Assembly (NCBI GenBank): GCA_031308135.1
Contig: JAHLJT010009436.1
Span: 162,732,681-162,796,680 of the forward strand
Length of the DNA stretch: 64,000 nucleotides
Reading direction: 5' to 3'
Source of the DNA: Acheta domesticus
Taxonomy: Eukaryota; Arthropoda; Insecta; Orthoptera; Gryllidae
The position numbers and the translations under genes were made by a program. The notes under the pieces are model-generated. The model had not been told where the DNA came from and made no database searches. It worked only from the letters and a program-made list of their open reading frames with translations. Shown one piece after another: positions 2,386 to 51,245 of this stretch. Each line of letters starts with the position of its first letter. The first letter of the stretch is position 1.

Positions 2386-2760
2386 AGGTGAGTGTGTTGG
2401 CGAAACGGATAGCGGTGGAGGCGGCGGTGTGGGAAACGATGTCATGAAAGGAGGCGGTGGTGGTGTGAATGGCGAGGGGTTGGGGGTGGTGGTGCTGTGA
2501 GGGAGTGTTGGGGGCAGCAGATGGCGTGAGGAGCGGAAGGTGGTAGCAGGGACAGAGGCATACGTAATAGCGACGGGGGTGACGGAGGATAACGGAGGGC
2601 GGTGAGGCTGCTGAGGGCGACGGAAGTGCGGGGGCGGAGAGTTGGGCGGATCATTCGGGTCTCGTGAGCCATGGCTCTGCGGTCGGCGACCGCCAACGCC
2701 GCCTCACCCTTCCCGTCATCCCTGCTGCTCACCGCCTACCCATGCCTAATGGAAACCGTG
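2386..2760. repeat. G/T-rich low-complexity block
   Basis: The plus strand is rich in GGCGG, GGTGG and GTG runs, like the G-rich part of the 360-bp unit at 1291. Open frames here (for example 2442-2732 minus) reflect this bias. No protein family is recognised. Confidence 0.45.
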
Positions 2761-2904
2761 AACCATTTTTTCCCCAAAAACAATTGTTAATATAACGCTA
2801 CATTGACATTGATTATTTTCTTTCAGTGCATTGCAATTATCTTTGTCTTATCTAATTGTTAATTAATGACCACCGCAGTGTTATGTGTTTAAATATCAGC
2901 TGTT

Positions 2905-3312
2905 GACGCACATTCGATTGATTGCTTAATAATGTGTGCGTCAACGTCTGCGGTCATTAGTCTTGTAAATTTTATATTTCTGTAAGTGTAGGTTCGTCCT
3001 CTGATGAAACAGGGATATTCGATGCAAACCTACTCCTCAGGTGGGTGTTTCCTCCCAACATATCTCCCCCAGTGGGGCACCACTCCGGCAGGGACAAGTC
3101 GTAGGTTTCCGACCGGCCTCCCAACATGCGTGTTGCTGCTGTGGAAGTAAATGTGTCTGTGCGGTTGTGATTGTAGGGGTGAGAAGGAGAAAAGAACGGG
3201 AAAGGAAACTTTTTTGTGGGCCATTGGTTATGGTATTGGTCTGTCATTCACCTGGTATTGATCAGAGAAGCTAAGGAAAAGTACTGATTAGAGCAACTAT
3301 GATCAACTAACA
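2905..3312 (-). mobile_element. Old, diverged SINE1 copy
   Basis: Landmarks of SINE1 in reverse order are still visible: a GATTGATTG tail at about 2917, a CCCCAGTGGGGCACCACTCCGGC block at about 3068, CCGACCGGCCTCCC at about 3108, and the ATTCACCTGGTATTGATC block at about 3246. Substitutions and small indels are much more frequent than in the 20.9-kb copy, so this insertion is older. Confidence 0.6.
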
Positions 3313-24434: not shown

Positions 24435-24737
24435 AGTATCATTTTTTGGTTAAAATGCTTCATCATTTTGATTATAGACAACACATTAGAAACATTAGTC
24501 TCATTAAAAAATGAAACACATTTATTCTTCAATCTTCTTTTCACATTTTTAATTTTAAACACAAAACAAAACTAAACTAAACACAAAAAATTAAACACAT
24601 TTATTCTTCAATCTTCTTTTTACATGTAAAAAGAAGATTGAAGAATATATGTGTTTAATTTTTTAATGAGACTAATGTGTCTAATGTGTTGCCTACAATC
24701 AAAATGATGAAGCATTTTAACAAAAAAAATTAGTACT
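24435..24737. mobile_element. Foldback (hairpin) element, about 300 bp
   Basis: The left arm, from TTAAAATGCTTCATCATTTT at 24450, has its reverse complement at the right end (24684-24720). The arms continue through CACATTAGTCTCATTAAAAA to a perfect centre at about 24615-24642 (AAGAAGATTG and complement). A 35-bp stretch (AAACACATTTATTCTTCAAT and on) occurs twice in the left arm, so about 80 bp loops out. No coding capacity. It could be a MITE-like foldback element or two inverted copies of one repeat. Confidence 0.7.
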
Positions 24738-30047: not shown

Positions 30048-30051
30048 TATA

Positions 30052-30624
30052 CAGAATGTCCGGGGAGGAAACGTGGAAACTTCGAAAATACGTTCTTAAG
30101 ACAATTCTAACCATAATTTGTCTAATAAACTACTATTAGACTAATAAACTGGATATTTCGAATGGTTGAGCCTCAATAAGCACTCAAATTTGGTTTGAAA
30201 AATTGATTTCTAGGCACACATTTGCATTATAGAAGCATAGAAACACTCCAGAAACATATTAGTTTTTTTATTATTTACAAAAGAATTGAATATATTTGTT
30301 CAGAAAGAAAAATTAAGCGAGAAATAAAAAAAACACCCAATATACACAATTCGACTGCTTTTATATTTCTCGCTTAATTTTTCTGTCTGAGCAAATATAT
30401 TTCAATTCTTTTGTAAATAATAAACAATTTACATGTTTCTGGAGGGTTTGTATGCCTCCAGAATGCAAATGTTTGCCCAGAAATCATTTTTTCAAACCAA
30501 ATTTTGAGTGCTCATTGCGGCCCAAACATTCGGAATATCCACGTAGCTTATTAGACAAAATATGCTTAGAATTGTCTTAAAAGCTTATTTGCGAAGTTTA
30601 GACGTTTCCTCCCCGGACATCCGG
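30052..30624. mobile_element. Long foldback element flanked by TATA
   Basis: Arms of about 270-280 bp (30052-30333 and 30356-30624) are reverse complements with modest divergence, around a spacer of about 25 bp. Termini are CAGAATGTCCGGGGAGGAAA on the left and the complement TCCCCGGACATCCGG on the right. TATA sits on both sides (30048-30051 and 30625-30628), consistent with a 4-bp target duplication. No protein is encoded. It may be a foldback/MITE element or a head-to-head pair of one element. Confidence 0.75.
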
Positions 30625-30628
30625 TATA

Positions 30629-31180: not shown

Positions 31181-31194
31181 CAGTGCGGGGGTAG

Positions 31195-31790
31195 CGCGGG
31201 CGTGAGCGGGGGCGAGGGCGGGGGCGAGGGCGAGGGCGAGGGTGCGCCAAGGGCGAGGGTGCGGGCGAGGGCGCTGGCGAGGCCGAGGGCGAGGGAGAGG
31301 GCGCGGGCGAGGGCGAGGGTGAGGGTGAGAGTGTGGGCGAGGGCGGGTGTGCGGGCGAGAGCGAGGGCGAGGGTGTGGGCGAGGGCGAGGGCGCTGGCGA
31401 GGCCGAGGGAGAAAGCGAGGGCGAGAGTGAGGGTGGGGACGAGGGCGGGGACAAGGCGGGGACAGGGCGAGAGCGAGGGCGGAGGCGGGGGAGATGGCGA
31501 GGGCAGGGCGAGGACGAGGGTGGGAGCGAGAGCGAGGGCGAGGGCGAGGCCAAGGGCAATGGAGAGGGCGCAGGCGAGGGCGGGGGCGAAGGCGAGGGCG
31601 CGGGCGAGGGCGAAGGCAATGGCGATGGCGAGGCCAAAGACAATGAAGAGGGCGCGGGCAAGGGCGCGGGGGAGGGCAAAGGCGAGGGCGAGGGCGAGGG
31701 CGGGGGCGAGGGCGAGGGCGAGGGCGACGGCGAGGGAGAGGGCGAGGGCGGGGGCGAGGGCGAGGGCATATGCGTAGGTGTAGGAGCGGG
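31195..31790 (+). repeat. GGGCGA hexamer tandem repeat, about 600 bp
   Basis: The plus strand consists of GGGCGA/GGGCGC/GGGAGA hexamers in long uninterrupted arrays. Because 6 is a multiple of 3, every frame stays open: up to 240 codons (Arg/Ala- or Gly/Glu-rich) on plus and 323 codons (Pro/Arg/Ser-rich) on minus. None is likely to be a gene. The plus strand is almost lacking in T, an extreme G/C skew. Confidence 0.9.
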
Positions 31791-32712: not shown

Positions 32713-33541
32713 TTTTTACTTTCCCGTATACGTACGTATATACGAAGTGATATACGTAGTATAGGGGAAGTTATGTAATGCTGCGCGAAAAAATGGCCAA
32801 TTTTTTGATAAAAGTGAATTTGTTTACTTGTCTCTCACGCCGTTAATATTTACACTATCGGAGAATTGTTCATATTATTATATTTATGAGTACATGTGCT
32901 TTAAATAATGTCAAGTAAAGTTTATCGAAAACAACCATTTTCTGTGAAAAGTAGCTCAAAATTCCGCATTTTCAGAAACGCTCAAACGCCATTTTCTCAT
33001 TTACGGCTACAATTTTTTCGTGAAACTTTTGTAACGGATAGTGCTAATTACACTCTTTAATATGACGTAAAGTTTGAGTTAATTTTTGTTTTTTCAAAAA
33101 TTATATAAATGTAATTTTTTTTAAAGATATCTCACATCTTTAATATGCACATTACCAGCAATTTGTGAAGATTATTATATTTGTGAGTGTAAGTGCTTTA
33201 AATGACTTTAAATAAAGTACTTTGAAAACTCAAAAATTTTCTGTAAAAATGAGCTTCAAATTTCGCATTTTTAGTGGCGTTGAAACGCCATTTTCTCTTA
33301 AACGGCACACAATTTTTAAAAGAAAATTGCAATTTATGACTACGTTTTTGTGTTCTTTAATATTCTAAAATTAATATTTCCGTTCTACCAATAAGAAAAT
33401 GACAAAAAAATGTACTTTTGGCGGTGATCGATGACGGCTGGCAAGAAAGAGTTTGTGGCAATTCCAAATAGCTAGCGAAGACCCAAGAAAATAAAAAAAT
33501 AATAAGGAAAAGTCTGTGCCCTTCTGTAGCACCACTAGTTA
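32713..33541 (+). mobile_element. Repeat family A, short copy (empty of Crypton)
   Basis: Starts TTTTTACTTTCCCGTATACG, with the inverted-repeat 5' end up to GGGGAAG, then TTATGTAATGCTGCGCGAAA. It lacks the middle 750 bp of the long copy at 41503 (internal deletion). It then has two diverged tandem units of about 300 bp (each ending in CAAACGCCATTTTCTC or GAAACGCCATTTTCTC) and the 3' part with GTACTTTTGGCGGTGAT. It ends in an imperfect hairpin GTGCC..AGCAC followed by CACTAG. At 33400 the site GACAAAAAAATGTAC is intact, whereas the long copy carries a 1.8-kb insert at this point. Confidence 0.75.
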
Positions 33542-37725: not shown

Positions 37726-38060
37726 GCTCGTGAGGGCGGGACACGGAGGGGCGGGGATCGGGGGTCTGAGGAGGGGGTGAGGCGCAGAGGTGGGGGGACG
37801 CGGAGGCGACGGGGCACGGAGAGGGCGGGGCGCGGAGGGGCGGGGCACGGAAGATGCCTGCCATGGAGGTTGGGGCACGGAGGGGGCAGGGCGCGGAGGG
37901 GGCGGAGCGCAGAAGGGTGGGGCGCGGAGGGAGCGGGGCGCGGAGGGGGCGGGGCGCGGAGGGGAGGGGCGCGGAGGGGAGGGGCGCGGAGGGGGCGGGG
38001 CGCGGAAGAATGGAGGCAGGACGTGGGAGGGACGGTACGTGGTGCAGGGGTGCGTAGGCC
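37726..38060 (+). repeat. GCGGAGGGGCGGGGC minisatellite
   Basis: Arrays of GCGCGGAGGGGGCGGG-like units (about 13-18 bp) run from about 37740 to 38010. Long Gly/Arg frames on plus and Pro/Ala/Arg frames on minus are artefacts. Confidence 0.8.
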
Positions 38061-41502: not shown

Positions 41503-41744
41503 TTTTTACTTTCCCATATACGTACGTATACACGGAGTGATATACGTAGTTTAGGGAAAGTTATGTAATGCTGCGCGAAAAAATGGCCAATTTTCGGCGG
41601 AAAAAAATTAATTGCCGGGCCGTGAAAACAAAGAAGTGGATAAAACCAGTTGCTAAATTAAGAAAAAAATCCCCTAACACGTGGTGTAGCCAGAAACCCT
41701 GTTTTCTAGGTTCTTGATACCGAAAACCCAATTGAAAACAAAAC

Positions 41745-41821
41745 GTCCGTCTGTCCGTCCGTCTGCCCGTCTGTCCGTCCGTCTGCCCGTCTGTCCGTCC
41801 GTCTCTGTCTGTCCGTCTGTG
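41745..41821 (+). repeat. (CCGTCTGTCCGT)n minisatellite inside family A
   Basis: CCGTCTGTCCGT/CCGTCTGCCCGT units lie at the same place where the copies at 53948 and 63775 have CCGTCCGT or TCTGTCCGTC runs. The array is therefore an intrinsic, length-variable part of the repeat family. Confidence 0.85.
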
Positions 41822-43018
41822 ATCACTGTTAGCACCTAAACCATACGTACGATTTCTTCCAAAATGGACATTCCCCGATCGATCTGATTCTAGTCAAAGC
41901 TTTGAGATTTTGAAAAAGATTCTTCGAAATTTGGGGGTACTTTATATGAAGCCCCCCGGACATTTTCAAAATTTTCTCAAAAACAGCTCCAAATTTTTTC
42001 TTTAAATTTCTTGTATGAATAGAGTACAATACGCGTATTAACACGGCATAGGACCGATTTCCACGGATAACTCTGAATTTTCGAAAATTGTGGAAGTTTG
42101 AATTTTTTTCGCGTCTTTCTCCAACTACAAAATTGAAAATAGAGATTTTTCCTTCAAATATTTTTTTCTTCATAGTGAGTTCTTTCTTTAAGGTCATCTA
42201 CATTTTTTTGAAAATGTTAGTGTTTTTCGCGCAATATTGCGTGCAATATGTGCAATTTTTTAAAAAATTACTAAAACAAGATTTTCTCAAAAATGGCTCC
42301 AAATTTTTTCTTTAAACTTTTGGTAGGGATTGTGGTAAATGTACTCTATCAAATGACATAAAAGCCATATTGGTCTATAGGTTGGTTTTTTCAAAAATTA
42401 CAAAAATGTAATTTTTTTCACATGTTTCTCACGTCGCTAATATTTAGATTATCGGCGATTTTTTTACATTATTATATTTACAAGTATATATTCTTTAAAT
42501 AATGTCAGGTAAAGATTCTTGAAAACACTACCATTTTCTGTGAAAAGTAGCTCAAATTTCCGCATTTTCAGAAATGCTCAAACGCCATTTTCTCATATAT
42601 GGCTGCAAATGTTTTCTTGAAACTTTTGTAACAGATGGTGATAATTACACTCTTTAATATGACATAAAGTTAATTTTAATTTTTTTTGTTTTTTTCAAAA
42701 ATTATATAAATGTAAATTTTTTGAATGATCTCTCACATCTTTAATAAGCACATTATCCGCAATTTGTAAAGATTATTATATTTGTGAATGTAAGTTCTTC
42801 AAATAACTTCAAATAAAGTATTTTGAAAACTCAAAAATTGTCTGTGAAAATGAGCTTCAAATTTCGCATTTTTAGTTGTGCTAAAACGCCATTTTCTCTT
42901 AAACGGCACATAATTTTTAAAAGAAAATTGCCATTTACGGCTAGGTTTTTGTGTTCTTTAATATTCTTAAATTAATATTTCCGTTCTACCAATAGGAAAC
43001 CGAAATATTAAGAAAATG

Positions 43019-44840
43019 ACAATAGCATATTATGCAATTAGTTTAAAACGTTATCCTTTTTTTGCACAAATAAGATATTACCGAACGAACGACGTTAGAT
43101 GAGAGTTCTGTAATTTCTTCGTATGAGTGCAAAACAGTAACATTATAAACGAGTTTCATACACTATTTTTTTGTATAACAGTATTATAAGGATTTAAGGA
43201 AGCGAAATTAATTGTGTTAAGTTGTAATTCGTAGTTGTAGAAGATTTCAAATTCATGTTTTGGCGTCATGAATGCTACCTAAGCGAGAAATTTGTTTACA
43301 AATGGCAATTAGTTTGATAATCGCGATTCAAGCATAATGGATTTGTCTAGAGAAATAGTGGAAGAAGCTGCAAAAACAGAAAATGCGATGATACCGAAAA
43401 AGCCTTGCAAACTTTATGAGAAAGAGTACTTAAAGTTAAGGAAATTTATGGATAAAAAATATGGAAATTTATTATGCAAAGCTGCTGTTCTTTCGTATCT
43501 ATCGGAGCAGTTTGGTTAAGTAAGTATAATGCACATGCTAGAATAAAGACGTTTGTTAATTTAATGCATGCTTCTTTAAACATTAAGTCCACAGCGTCGT
43601 AAAGCGTCGACACTATGGTGCACTTATTCCAAATTAAAGGAAATGCTAATGATCAAAGAGAATATTGATATTGGAACTTTTCATAAAGTAAGTTTACTTA
43701 TGAAACACGTAAATGTGGGATATCAACCTATAAAGGCAATGGTATTTTCCCAACAAGATGTAAACACACTTCTTACAAAAGCTGATGATGAAACTTTTCT
43801 TTAATGAAGGTTTAATAATGACAGTGGCAATAATAGTTAAGTTTTATTTATTAAGTGGTATTGTATTAATAACTGGTATGATTTTCAGGTTGTTGCTATT
43901 TTTGGCATATTTGATGCTTGTAGACGTGTCGAATTGTATAATTTGTGCATCAACGATGTGAAAGAAGAAGGTTCTGTTTTGATAGTGAACAAAAAATGAC
44001 AAGCCCAGAATATTTACTAACGTATCCAGTGAAGAATTTAATAATGTTGAGGTCTGTAAAAAGTACATTTCCTTAAGACCCTTACATGTTAAACACAAAA
44101 AACTTGTTTGTTTTACAATCATGGCAAATGCAGCTGCAATCCAATTGGTATCAATACATTTGCGAAAATACCAAAACATATTGCAAATTTTTTAAAATTA
44201 CCAAATGCATAAAAGTACTCTGGTCATTCGTTTAGGAGAGCATCCGCGACGTTTCTCACAGATAATGGTGGTGATACCACTACACTTAAACGTCATGGAG
44301 GATGGCGGACTGCAAGTGTAGCGGAGTCATACATCGAAGAATCGGTGAATAACAAGATTCAAATAGCTAACAAGATATTGCTTAGCGCAGAAAGCAAAGA
44401 AAAAACAAGCATTTTAGATATAAATGCATGTTCTGGAGTGTCACTGATCAATTTATCAAATTGTACACTTAATGTACATGTTCAGAAGAATTAATTTGAT
44501 GTTTTTTGTTGTTCTTATTATGTTGTTCTTGTTATATTACCAAATAAAAACCAAATATAATTTTAAAGGAGTAATAAATTAATAAATCTATTTTTAAAAG
44601 TAAGTTTTTTCATAACGTATTTGATTTTACTGCGAACACTGCAATCTGTTTATATGGTACCACTGCCTTCTTTAAACTCCATAACTGAAAATATATAGGG
44701 GCCGTGACTATTACGTCAGTGATGGCTCATATATCGTGCAGAAATAGCGATGACTTAATGATTCGTTCAATAATATTCCTTACTATGAACAATATTGTTA
44801 ATGTAAAAGGGTTGTTTATAATACTGTTATACAAAAAAAT
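43019..44840 (+). mobile_element. Crypton-like element inserted into family A
   Basis: The empty family A copy has GAAAATGACAAAAAAATGTAC at 33396-33416. Here GAAAATGACAA (to about 43022) is separated by about 1.8 kb from ACAAAAAAATGTAC (44831). ACAA occurs at both junctions (43019-43022 and 44831-44834) and could be the short direct repeat left by integration. The insert encodes a decayed tyrosine recombinase (43337-44494) with about 315 bp before it and 340 bp after it. Insert length without other genes and the single recombinase gene fit Cryptons. A perfect 25-bp inverted repeat (43165-43189 and 44816-44840) is unusual for Cryptons. Confidence 0.7.
43337..44494 (+). pseudogene. Crypton-type tyrosine recombinase, broken, with two short introns
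   Basis: The ATG at 43337 opens an N-terminal SAM-like core-binding region (to 43516). A likely intron with GTAAGT donor at 43520 and CAG end at 43594 follows, then the frame with STLWCTYSKLKEML (43604-43804). A second likely intron (43810-43888, ends TTTTCAG) leads to GIFDACRRVEL, with the first catalytic Arg at 43922-43927. The last part has IPKHIANFLKLPNA, then GHSFRR (HxxR at 44225-44236), KRHGGW (44291-44305) and VAESYIEES with the nucleophilic Tyr at 44330-44332; stop at 44492. Breaks: TAA at 43517 beside the donor, a frame change at about 43800, a TGA with a shift at about 43997, another shift at about 44100, and TAA at 44210. Similar recombinases occur in insect Cryptons and related domesticated host genes. 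It is not functional as written. Confidence 0.8.
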
Positions 44841-45109
44841 GTACTTTTGGCGGTGATAGATGGCAGCTGGCAAGAAAGGGTATGTGGCAATTCCATATAG
44901 CTACCGAAAACCCAAGGAAATAGAAAACTAATACGGGAAAGTCTGTGCCATTCTGTGGCACCACTAGTTAGTTAATGTTATAAAGTATTTCATTAATGTA
45001 CAGAAAAGTACAGTGAATGAAACATTATTTCAAAAAATTAAAACTTTTCAAATGTTTTCATGTACTATTTAAAAAAAATCAATTTCAAAGTCGTAGAGAA
45101 AGTATAGTC

Positions 45110-49049: not shown

Positions 49050-50710
49050 AATGGAGAAGAACCTAAGAGAAGGGTAGGCTTCAGTGGAAGTGTCACCCGC
49101 ACCGAATGACAGAAGGGATATGATGGTCGCAAGTGTAGAAAGGGCGCTAATGAAAGGCTCTGGCAATAGATATCAGAATGGTGGCAAGAAATAGCTGGCA
49201 GAGGGAGTTTGGTCGAGATTATTAGAGTCGGGTTTCTGTGAGAACAAGAGGGGCAGAAAACTAGTGGCCGATGAATTGGGATCGGGGAACTGTGAGGGCA
49301 GTCCTCGAAAATCGGGGCATAAGAGAGATTGAAGTGCAGGAGGTGATTGAGAAAGTGGGAAGCTCAGGGAACTGGAGAGATTGGGAAAATGGAGAGATCG
49401 ATGAATAGGAGAGAGCAAGTAAACGGAGAGATCGGGCAAACAGTAGCGAAGCTAAGAAGAATAACCAAGGTCAGGAGTGCGCAGTAAACGAATACTGTAT
49501 CAAGGGCGGGAGAGCTACGGAAGCAATATGATAAAGGATAAAATGGAAAAGTAGAAGCTCCATTCATTGTCGAAACCGCGAGTGACGAGGCAGAGGCGGC
49601 GGAGGCAGCGGGAGCCCGTGAGAGGCGACGGGGTCTGCGCAGAGCGAGGGGTAACAAACACAAAGAAGTGTTTACAAGTGTAAAATGGCTGCTAATGGAA
49701 GAGAGGCTCTAGCAATAGACATCATATCGGTGGCGAGAAACTGCTGGATTTGGCTCGAAATTAATAAGGTCGAGTTTTTTCAGAACAGCAGAGCCAGAAA
49801 ACAAGTGGTGGGTGAATTGGGATCGCAGAACTGTGGGGGCCGAAATCTCAAAAATCTGGGAAATATACTATTTAAATATAGCTGCACTTCAATGTCACTA
49901 GCTGGAAGAAGAGGGGGACATTGTTATCCAATCGGGAGCTGCAATGCCAAAATTTGAAGTCTTAACGAAGCTCCAGATTGGATTGAGAGTCAGGAGAGAT
50001 TGGAGAACCGGAGAGGTCGGAGAACTGGAGAGATCGGGGAACTGGAGAGATCGGGGTAGCGGAAAGATCGGGGAAGCGGAGAGATCGGGGAAGCAGAGTG
50101 ATCGGATAAGCGGAGAGATCGGGGAAGCGGAGACATCGGGGAACCGGAGAGATCGGGGAACCGGAGAGATCGGGGAACCGGAGAGATCGGGGAACCGGAG
50201 AGATCGGGGAACCGGAGAGATCGGGGAACCGGAGAGATCGGGGAACCGGAGAGATCGGGGAACCGAAGAGATCGGGGAACCGGTGAGATCAGGGAACCGG
50301 AAAGATCGGGGAACCGGAGAGATCGGGGAAACGGAAAGATCGGAGAGATCGGAGGACTGTAGAAATCGAGGATCCGGAGAGATCGGGGAGCCGGAGAGGT
50401 CGGGGAATCTGAGAGATCGGGGAACCGGAGAGATCGCCGAGTTGGAGAGATGGGCACACGAAGAGATCGCAGAGCTGGAGAGATCGGGCAAACGGAGAAG
50501 CAAAGCCAAGAAGAGTAGCCAAGGTCAGTTGCGCAGAGTAAACGAACAGGGGACAGAAAGGGAGAGCGACGGGAGCACTATGACAAAGGACAAATGGGGG
50601 GAAAGTAGGGTGCTCCATCTATTGACGGCACTGCGAGTGACGAGGCAGAGGCGGCGGAAGCAGCGGGAGCCCGTGAGAGGAGACGGGGTCTGCACAGAGA
50701 GAGTGGCGAG
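49050..50710 (+). repeat. Duplicated locus, two units with a 17-bp minisatellite
   Basis: Unit A (about 49140-49655) and unit B (about 49682-50705) share, in order: GGCTCT(G/A)GCAATAGA..ATCA..GGTGGC, then GTCGAG..TT..AGAACA, then GGTGAATTGGGATCG or its variant. Both then have GGAGAGAT-type repeats, CGGGCAAACGGAGA-like sequence, and CGAGTGACGAGGCAGAGGCG with AGCGGGAGCCCGTGAGAGG. Unit B has a much longer minisatellite. The open frames at 49173-49663 (minus) and 49685-50912 (plus) result from the repeats. No known protein is seen. Confidence 0.75.
50015..50465 (+). repeat. 17-bp minisatellite CGGGGAACCGGAGAGAT
   Basis: About 25 units run from 50015 to 50465. Nine central units (50143-50290) are almost identical and the outer ones are diverged. 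Since 17 is not divisible by 3, all frames show the same 17-residue periodicity (for example RRDRGTGEIGEPERSGN on plus), and both strands are open. Confidence 0.9.
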
Positions 50711-50900
50711 GACGCGGGCGAGGACGCGGGCGAGGACGCGGGCGAGGACGCGGGCGAGGACGCGGGCGAGGACGCGGGCGAGGACGCGGGCGAGGACGCG
50801 GGCGAGGGCGCGGGCGAGGACGCGGGCGAGGGCGCGGGCGCGAGCGCGGGCGAAGACGCGGGCGAGGGCGCGGGCGAGGGCGCGGACGCGGGGGAGGGCA
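50700..50900 (+). repeat. 12-bp minisatellite GAGGACGCGGGC
   Basis: About 15 units of GAGGACGCGGGC or GAGGGCGCGGGC, in register with codons, give RTRA-type (plus) or ASSP-type (minus) frames. It joins directly to unit B of the duplicated locus. Confidence 0.9.
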
Positions 50901-51245
50901 CGGCGAGGGTGAGGGCGAGGGTGGGAGGAGGCGGGGCGCGTGGGAGCGCGTGCGAGTGTCGCGTGGCGGAGTCCTCGACAGCTGCTCACCCGCCAGCCGC
51001 CCTCATATGTCTTCGTTCGCCGTCCGCCCCCAGCGACCGCTTAAACGGCCCCGCCAAGTCGGCACGCGCCCCCGCCCCCGCCGCGCTGCACCGCGCAAGT
51101 ATAGAATTTAAATGATTTATAGGTTTTTAACCTACTAATGCCCCGGGATCGCCCGATCCCTATATCACCTGCCCCGAATATTACGCAAATAAAGGATGAT
51201 TTATTATTCGGAAACTTTGAAATACGAGATGCGTAGGAGAGGAAA
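50901..51245. promoter_or_regulatory. CpG-rich block with conserved-element-like AT core
   Basis: CpG-rich DNA (50930-51100) passes into AATTTAAATGATTTATAGG, TTTTAACCTACTAATGCC and GGATCGCCCGATCC (a 14-bp palindrome at 51147). AATATTACGCAAATAAAGG and GATGATTTATTATTCGG follow. The TTTAT/ATAAA words are Hox/Cad-like. Regulatory function is inferred from composition and motifs only. Confidence 0.25.

Follow-up and report, generated by a model that had tools for sequence, protein, structure and literature searches.

A decayed Crypton-type element with a DIRS-like internal complementary region inside a HINE/DINE-1-like repeat of Acheta domesticus

The Cryptons of animals possess no terminal repeats, either direct or inverted, according to the accessible part of PMC3212892, and a short direct repeat is named as their only distinguishing feature in the accessible text of the 2022 curation guide (PMC8969392), while little is known of how they locate their ends and targets. 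In DIRS1, as treated in the available sections of PMC3266345, the internal complementary region (ICR) sums to 85-130 bp, and in the model proposed there the joining uses a short identical sequence and leaves no target duplication; a descent of DIRS elements from Crypton-like recombinases has been proposed. The third closely related system, the DINE-1/HINE elements, is composed, by the accessible description in PMC4067079, of subterminal inverted repeats, a 5' inverted repeat, a microsatellite, central tandem repeats, a 3' palindrome and T flanks. A literature search on Cryptons together with Helentrons gave nothing beyond a paper on an oomycete, and no paper with a title reporting an ICR in Cryptons was found in a search of open-access journal papers.

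The window analysed here, a stretch of 64,000 nucleotides of Acheta domesticus (contig JAHLJT010009436.1), combines traits of these systems in one repeating unit (Table 1). The reading that is best supported by the comparisons below, with a probability of about 0.8, is that a Crypton inserted once in the A-run of a HINE/DINE-1-like element, that HINE-type copying then multiplied the composite, and that the ICR of the Crypton inverts the joint of its ends.

Table 1. Features of the composite unit and of its copy without the insert (window positions; a slash marks a unit border)
Feature	Position	Strand	Basis or remark
Composite repeating unit, HINE/DINE-1-like element and Crypton segment	41503..44969	+	ends TT/ACTTTCCC...CTAG/TT
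5' subterminal inverted repeat, ACTTTCCC here, ACTTTCCCGTAT in most copies	41508..41515	+	pairs with 41554-41561
GGGAAAGT, 3' arm of the 5' inverted repeat	41554..41561	+	as in the DINE-1 drawing of PMC4067079 (accessible part)
(GTCY)n microsatellite	41745..41820	+	tandem-repeat search
Central tandem repeats, ~306 bp per unit	41967..42907	+	self-comparison
ACAA, left short direct repeat at the insertion	43019..43022	+	filled/empty alignment
Crypton-type element (1808 bp), decayed	43023..44830	+	filled versus empty alignment; relatives outside the repeat with identical left start
Left Crypton terminus AATAGCATATTATGC... (counting two ACAA bases)	43023..43095	+	folds back on 43105-43174
Internal complementary region	43105..43189	-	reverse complement of right end, core and left end; same layout in L071, L072, L073
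YR gene, exon 1	43340..43519	+	in-frame stop at exon end in window copy
Intron 1, 75 bp, GT..AG	43520..43594	+	splice-site alignment; many relatives break here too
YR gene, exon 2	43595..43809	+	frame broken
Intron 2, 79 bp, GT..AG	43810..43888	+	splice-site alignment; breaks in relatives
YR gene, exon 3 (all four catalytic signatures: R, HxxR, HGGW, Y)	43889..44494	+	frame broken
Right terminus arm TTATAATACTGTTAT	44816..44830	+	inverted match of 43175-43189
ACAA, right short direct repeat	44831..44834	+	A-run goes on into host repeat
3' subterminal inverted repeat ATACGGGAAAGT	44931..44942	+	copy alignment
3' hairpin GTGCC...GGCAC, then CACTAG and TT	44945..44961	+	folding
Short HINE copy without Crypton	32713..33540	+	empty site 33402-33405

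The decayed tyrosine recombinase (YR) recognised in the initial annotation is confirmed by the alignment of its R, HxxR, HGGW and Y signatures with those of relatives, which gives the R-H-R-Y set of a Crypton, and by a protein search in which 38 of 688 candidates matched at E <= 1e-3, the best at 1e-78. The best of them, with 76% over 61% of the query, is an annotated protein of Gryllus longicercus, and five further named relatives belong to Tribolium, Exocentrus, Tenebrio, Pyrocoelia and Trichogramma; all six matches bearing an organism name are from insects, the other 32 of the 38 being without such a name. The Pfam profile PF00589 scored above the cut-off in the relatives L071, P0003 and P0007, below it in the decayed window copy, and was not found in P0001, which is without the C-terminus. 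The two intron-like gaps proposed at the same time also hold, their GT, AG, GT and AG being kept in 38, 38, 36 and 37, respectively, of the 39 aligned copies, window included, and many, not all, of the matches in a genome-wide YR protein search start or stop at query residues ~59-62 and 136-143, window-family copies included; judged from these alignments, the introns are conserved and the gene is apparently of the spliced type. The same genome yielded at least 162 YR matches (116 of 4998 candidates scored), so that Cryptons, presented as rare at first, are not so here. Units of ~980 bp, in which a related recombinase is represented by its C-terminal half alone, were also seen at L069 1771-2750 and L070 1735-2718, 97% alike in unrelated flanks, and many of the genome-wide YR matches have the same range and one TAG.

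The copies of the host repeat, family A, at 33.4 kb and at 42.4-45.0 kb align in the window self-alignment to the left and right of the insert, with ACAA twice in the filled and once in the empty copy; this short direct repeat at the ends of the window insertion is as in a Crypton. The insertion with ACAA at both junctions is thereby borne out, with bounds narrower than the 43019-44840 given originally, since the latter end takes in ACAA and six flank bases. The empty copy at 33396-33416, thought to define the insertion point, does carry ACAA once, and it is without ~16 bp just left of the site; the point is better fixed by the other empty copies, because most of them keep these bases. In the genome query with 43200-44500, 40 of the 1204 candidates were scored, and at least 41 matches (91-100%) were obtained, for 36 of which the loci with flanks were examined, the remaining five being the window, one match inside L037 and three left out. 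The left junction is identical in 33 of the 36 loci and in the window, the place of the junction being truncated or interrupted in the others (L029, L040, L041), and two extra copies, L065 and L066, have the identical right junction, L066 going on into the repeat at the left and L065 not. What stands of the claim of a Crypton-like element is thus its Crypton-type recombinase, the ACAA insertion and the spliced gene; a separate, independent insertion at this spot is ruled out, since the homology between copies spans 41503-44969, past both insert edges and with a common junction, as expected for a passenger in the host repeat.

The rolling-circle-type nature of this host repeat, with its subterminal repeats, hairpin, microsatellite and CTAG/TT end, had been overlooked in the initial annotation. 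In the 38 units with both ends (examined loci and window, the sequence stopping at the head in L010 and L014), the left border is ...TT/ACTTTCCCGTAT and the right one CTAG/TT, with the CTAG end in 37 of the 38; target duplications were not seen around them by eye, and their flanks differ. The subterminal inverted repeats ACTTTCCCGTAT and ATACGGGAAAGT agree with the 12-15 bp characteristic of HINE/DINE-1, as do the T flanks without target duplication (38 units, flanks by eye). The 5' hairpin folds at z -4.52 and the 3' hairpin at z -2.45 in the window unit and at -0.63, which is not significant, in the 33.5-kb copy, and in L044 and L056 a tail is directly followed by another head, with the joint CTAGTT/ACTTTCCC. 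The Helitron_like_N profile gave at least 150 matches over the cut-off (150 of 674 candidates scored), some of them in frames of up to 1477 aa. By this anatomy, family A is classified as a HINE/DINE-1-like element of the rolling-circle type. An inverted 137-bp HINE head was seen directly or closely after the tail in L011, L018 and L027 (also L019 and L022), which gives long terminal inverted repeats to a subset of the HINE units. Elsewhere in the window, self-comparison gave long self-complementary stretches at 24442-24728 and 30048-30628, and tandem repeats with purine- or GC-rich units lie at 31194-31767, 37775-38008, 49993-50498 and 50705-50921.

The variation among 39 copies of the segment is that of a passenger. 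The minor-base fractions at codon positions 1, 2 and 3 of the C-terminal frame are.037,.037 and.028, those of the other exon stretches are.011-.051 with no third-position excess, and those of intron 2 and the untranslated parts.018-.052; the codon-position drift in these copies gave no sign of purifying selection on the YR gene. Moreover, all 15 matches ending at query position 947 (L030-L044) share the exact loss of 44147-44590, which takes out the HxxR and Y region, and because this class without the recombinase C-terminus was amplified too, the amplification has no need of the protein in cis. The common unit ends, the one common junction and the drift of the gene without a sign of purifying selection show passenger copying as a HINE, and on the alignments the YR segment is taken to have entered family A once and then to have been amplified as a passenger.

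Relatives of the Crypton outside the repeat define its own ends. Family X (L067, L068 and L071, 95-97% alike) has ~65% DNA identity to the window element, and a third family (L072 and L073) is 92% alike. L067 aligns from window position 43021 onward, and both L067 and L071 start at the same left end as the window element; L071 gave no match to window 41503-43018, and its local alignments with the element, which overrun the left junction by 15 bases and the right one by 14, are taken as an AT-rich overrun. The only ORF of at least 100 aa between the ends of L071 (~1.8 kb) is the recombinase, and its ORF list, as in a Crypton, holds no other transposition protein. The left ends are AATAGCATATTATGC in the window, AATAGTAGTTTATGC in family X and AATAGTTATTTATGT in the third family, and the right ends are ..ATACAAAAAA in the window and family X, and AAACCATAAA or AAATCATAAA in the third family. 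A terminal inverted repeat transposon at 43165-44840 was considered and rejected, as the 142 bp to its left belong to the element in L067 and L071. An ORF at L071 2904-3236, which adjoins the family-X Crypton, is presumably an IS630/mariner-type transposase by its motif, and to the right in the third-family element L073 there is a 0.8-kb inverted duplication (2410-3200).

The right-end pattern of family X was found at 1153 places with at most one mismatch and at none for the reversed control, these being unchecked pattern matches. The 20 right ends read, out of roughly 100 places listed, all have flanks unrelated to one another (no similar pair among 190) and all run into 5 to 9 As, four of which the search pattern itself demands, and TATT or TTAT occurs in the first 18 flank bases of 14 of them versus 19 of 80 windows farther out. 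This flank pattern is compatible with recombination at A-runs followed by sequence like that of the Crypton left end, and the HINE target ACAAAAAAATG contains an A-run. Searches for joined right and left ends with the window and X arms gave two matches with three mismatches around a first, wrongly placed core and, in an exact search, none around the A-run core, so that circle-joint patterns were dropped as having no support from them; 40 pattern matches in viral contigs gave none that was confirmed. In L072 a right-arm sequence stands directly before the left end, which could be a circle joint or the end of a neighbour.

These ends and targets bear on the possibility that the HINE captured the Crypton by template switching in replication or repair, with the recombinase taking no part in the insertion. 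Helitrons and Helentrons do capture genes, as the accessible part of PMC4067079 reports, and all the copies read stem from one event, as a capture would have it; however, the captured piece would be one whole element, end to end, at an A-run position like that of the 20 family-X right ends read, and this route is considered improbable beside insertion by the recombinase.

A perfect 25-bp inverted repeat (43165-43189 and 44816-44840), absent from the initial annotation, joins the inner region to the right end of the Crypton, the longest inverted repeat in 300 order-1 Markov simulations being 16 bp, and directly beyond it the left end has its reverse complement, at 43105-43174. The joined ends give a raw score of 85 against 43105-43189; the left end alone scores 55 against the inner region in the window and 105 in L067, the maxima in 1000 letter shuffles being 42 and 46, respectively. 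The foldback of family X in L067 reaches z -13.66. In L071, L072 and L073, a foldback of 141, 190 and 141 bp stands beside the gene, and an inverted partner of 24-35 bp follows the gene downstream (E 1.9e-5, 2e-4 and 1e-7); both ICR halves exceed 500 of 500 shuffles in these three loci and the window. The stretches tested here, like those in the 1000 shuffles of the window and L067, were chosen after being seen. A rule written after the three loci were known, namely a foldback of at least 100 bp adjoining one of the arms of a distant inverted repeat, describes all three full-length loci (two further families) and none of 33 control windows, which were half-overlapping stretches of the window, the window element being left out of this run; L067, the right end of which is missing, does not fall under the rule. 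Imperfect arms around a joined ACAA core, tried as another arrangement with a left end misplaced by one base, gave weak values (p between about.005 and.11) and are superseded by the ICR. The reported Crypton property of having no inverted repeats does not apply here, ICR and foldback being present, and the sequence comparisons show the ICR layout in three Crypton families.

Such a layout raises the question of whether the YR elements descend from DIRS1 retrotransposons and, after loss of the reverse transcriptase, kept the recombinase and the ICR. The layout and the ~85 bp length do resemble DIRS1 (85-130 bp in the accessible part of PMC3266345), and the ICR is a trait of DIRS1; neither inverted terminal repeats nor a reverse transcriptase appear in the ORF and repeat lists. 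In particular, the YR is the sole ORF of at least 100 aa within the L071 ends, with no reverse transcriptase in that ORF list, and the repeat lists of L071-L073 contain no inverted repeat that would connect the outer left end with the outer right one. The two introns are kept in many copies, although copying through spliced RNA would remove them, and among the 38 relatives of the protein search the nearest with an organism name are beetle, wasp and cricket proteins. A retrotransposon ancestry of this kind is thus doubtful, about as much so as the capture by template switching, and a DNA element with its own ICR is preferred.

The direction of the event, insertion or loss, is read from the empty copies. 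An empty-site probe gave 3595 candidate places, of which the best 40, which were scored, all span the site, and the set analysed comprised 30 empties, 10 in the window or beside filled copies and 20 out of these best 40. At all 30, chosen as single matches spanning the site, the repeat runs across without the 1.8-kb segment, so the concern, stated beforehand, that every family A copy might contain it did not materialise. ACAA is legible in 25 of these places, whereas L051 and the four old copies differ there; the old empties have a mean distance of 19-22% from the filled copies, which differ among themselves by 6.7% on average, and the one in L010 is gapped at the site itself. In a maximum-likelihood tree of 31 filled and 30 empty copies, a single branch separates the filled ones from the empties (1 change, support 79/89) and recurs in 80% of 200 bootstrap trees, the bootstrap being not settled, and by the program's own criterion the grouping is neither established nor refuted; the monophyly of the filled copies thus has moderate support from the alignment. 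A first FastTree (30 filled and 10 empty rows) had placed four empties among the filled copies. These four share two left-flank states with 12 of the 30 filled copies, which may be due to recombination between copies. Precise excision as the source of young empties inside the filled clade was rejected, as at one column on the left and two on the right the four are without the states derived in the filled copies, from which they are also set apart in the larger tree.

That the empties are deletion derivatives, the YR segment being original and lost by end-joining at ACAA microhomology, would agree with ACAA at both edges, and the family does yield an exact, amplified internal deletion (44147-44590). 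Nevertheless, old diverged copies cross the site without the segment (one of the four, L010, gapped there), the filled copies have derived states near the junction and lie on one side of a branch, and the Crypton relatives outside the repeat begin at the identical left end, all of which makes such a loss very unlikely. One insertion into a pre-existing repeat is favoured by the old contiguous empties, the derived states in the filled copies and the one change on the tree, and is the best supported explanation of empties and tree as far as they have been aligned. Finally, the inverted repeats could hardly be foldback noise of AT-rich DNA, even with the window's own foldback as weak as z -2.15, as the step from the window family to family X replaces AC by GA in both arms at once, and the third family keeps the identical layout with unrelated arm letters, with 0 of 33 controls showing it.

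The preferred course of events would then begin with a Crypton-type DNA element of 1.8 kb, with one spliced YR gene, that entered the A-run ACAAAAAAATG of a HINE once, between the HINE central repeats and its 3' end. The recombinase would join the right end (arm and ACAAAAAA) to the left end (AATAG..TTATG), giving a circle, and the circle would recombine with genomic A-run sites without target duplication. The ICR beside the left end is an inverted copy of this end-to-end joint and would most likely serve, by analogy with the proposal for DIRS1, as a splint holding both ends together, or else as an internal recombinase-binding site. The composite was subsequently copied as a HINE, probably by rolling circle with Helitron/Helentron proteins, as the HINE anatomy and the many Helitron genes in the genome suggest.

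The ICR in YR-only elements constitutes a structural link for the proposed descent of DIRS. With the ICR, a single copy is also enough to define the ends of a Crypton, these being what the inner region mirrors, and the idea of a splinted circle becomes testable. The composite illustrates how one class of DNA transposon can multiply a dying element of another class. Only tentatively, and with rather more doubt than confidence, this may be extended to insect Cryptons generally, which would possess a DIRS-type ICR, the end-joining device then being older than the DIRS reverse transcriptase and belonging to a DNA transposon that circularises via an internal inverted copy of its joint, and which could reach four-digit copy numbers alone (by the family X ends) or riding on rolling-circle elements.

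Among the described systems, the insect CryptonI of Kojima and Jurka 2011 (PMC3212892, accessible part) is similar in that it occurs in insects, encodes no protein other than the YR, lacks an extra domain at the C-terminus and has abundant non-autonomous relatives, and the elements considered here differ from it by the subterminal foldback and the inverted right-end copy in three families. They are also far more numerous than the few dozen Crypton copies per species mentioned in the available text of PMC4157794. The host repeat resembles the HINE/DINE-1-like elements of Thomas et al. 2014 (PMC4067079, accessible part) in the subterminal and 5' inverted repeats, the microsatellite, the central tandem repeats, a candidate 3' palindrome and the T flanks with no target duplication seen; in contrast to these, the unit carries a whole Crypton, and its 3' subterminal repeat is nearer to the end than the 38-60 bp given there for mite HINEs. 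With the DIRS1-like retrotransposons, as portrayed in the accessible part of PMC3266345, the Cryptons share an ICR over the right-left joint, of ~85 bp here, which is located beside the left end, whereas that of DIRS1 is at the 3' end, and they keep introns and are without inverted terminal repeats.
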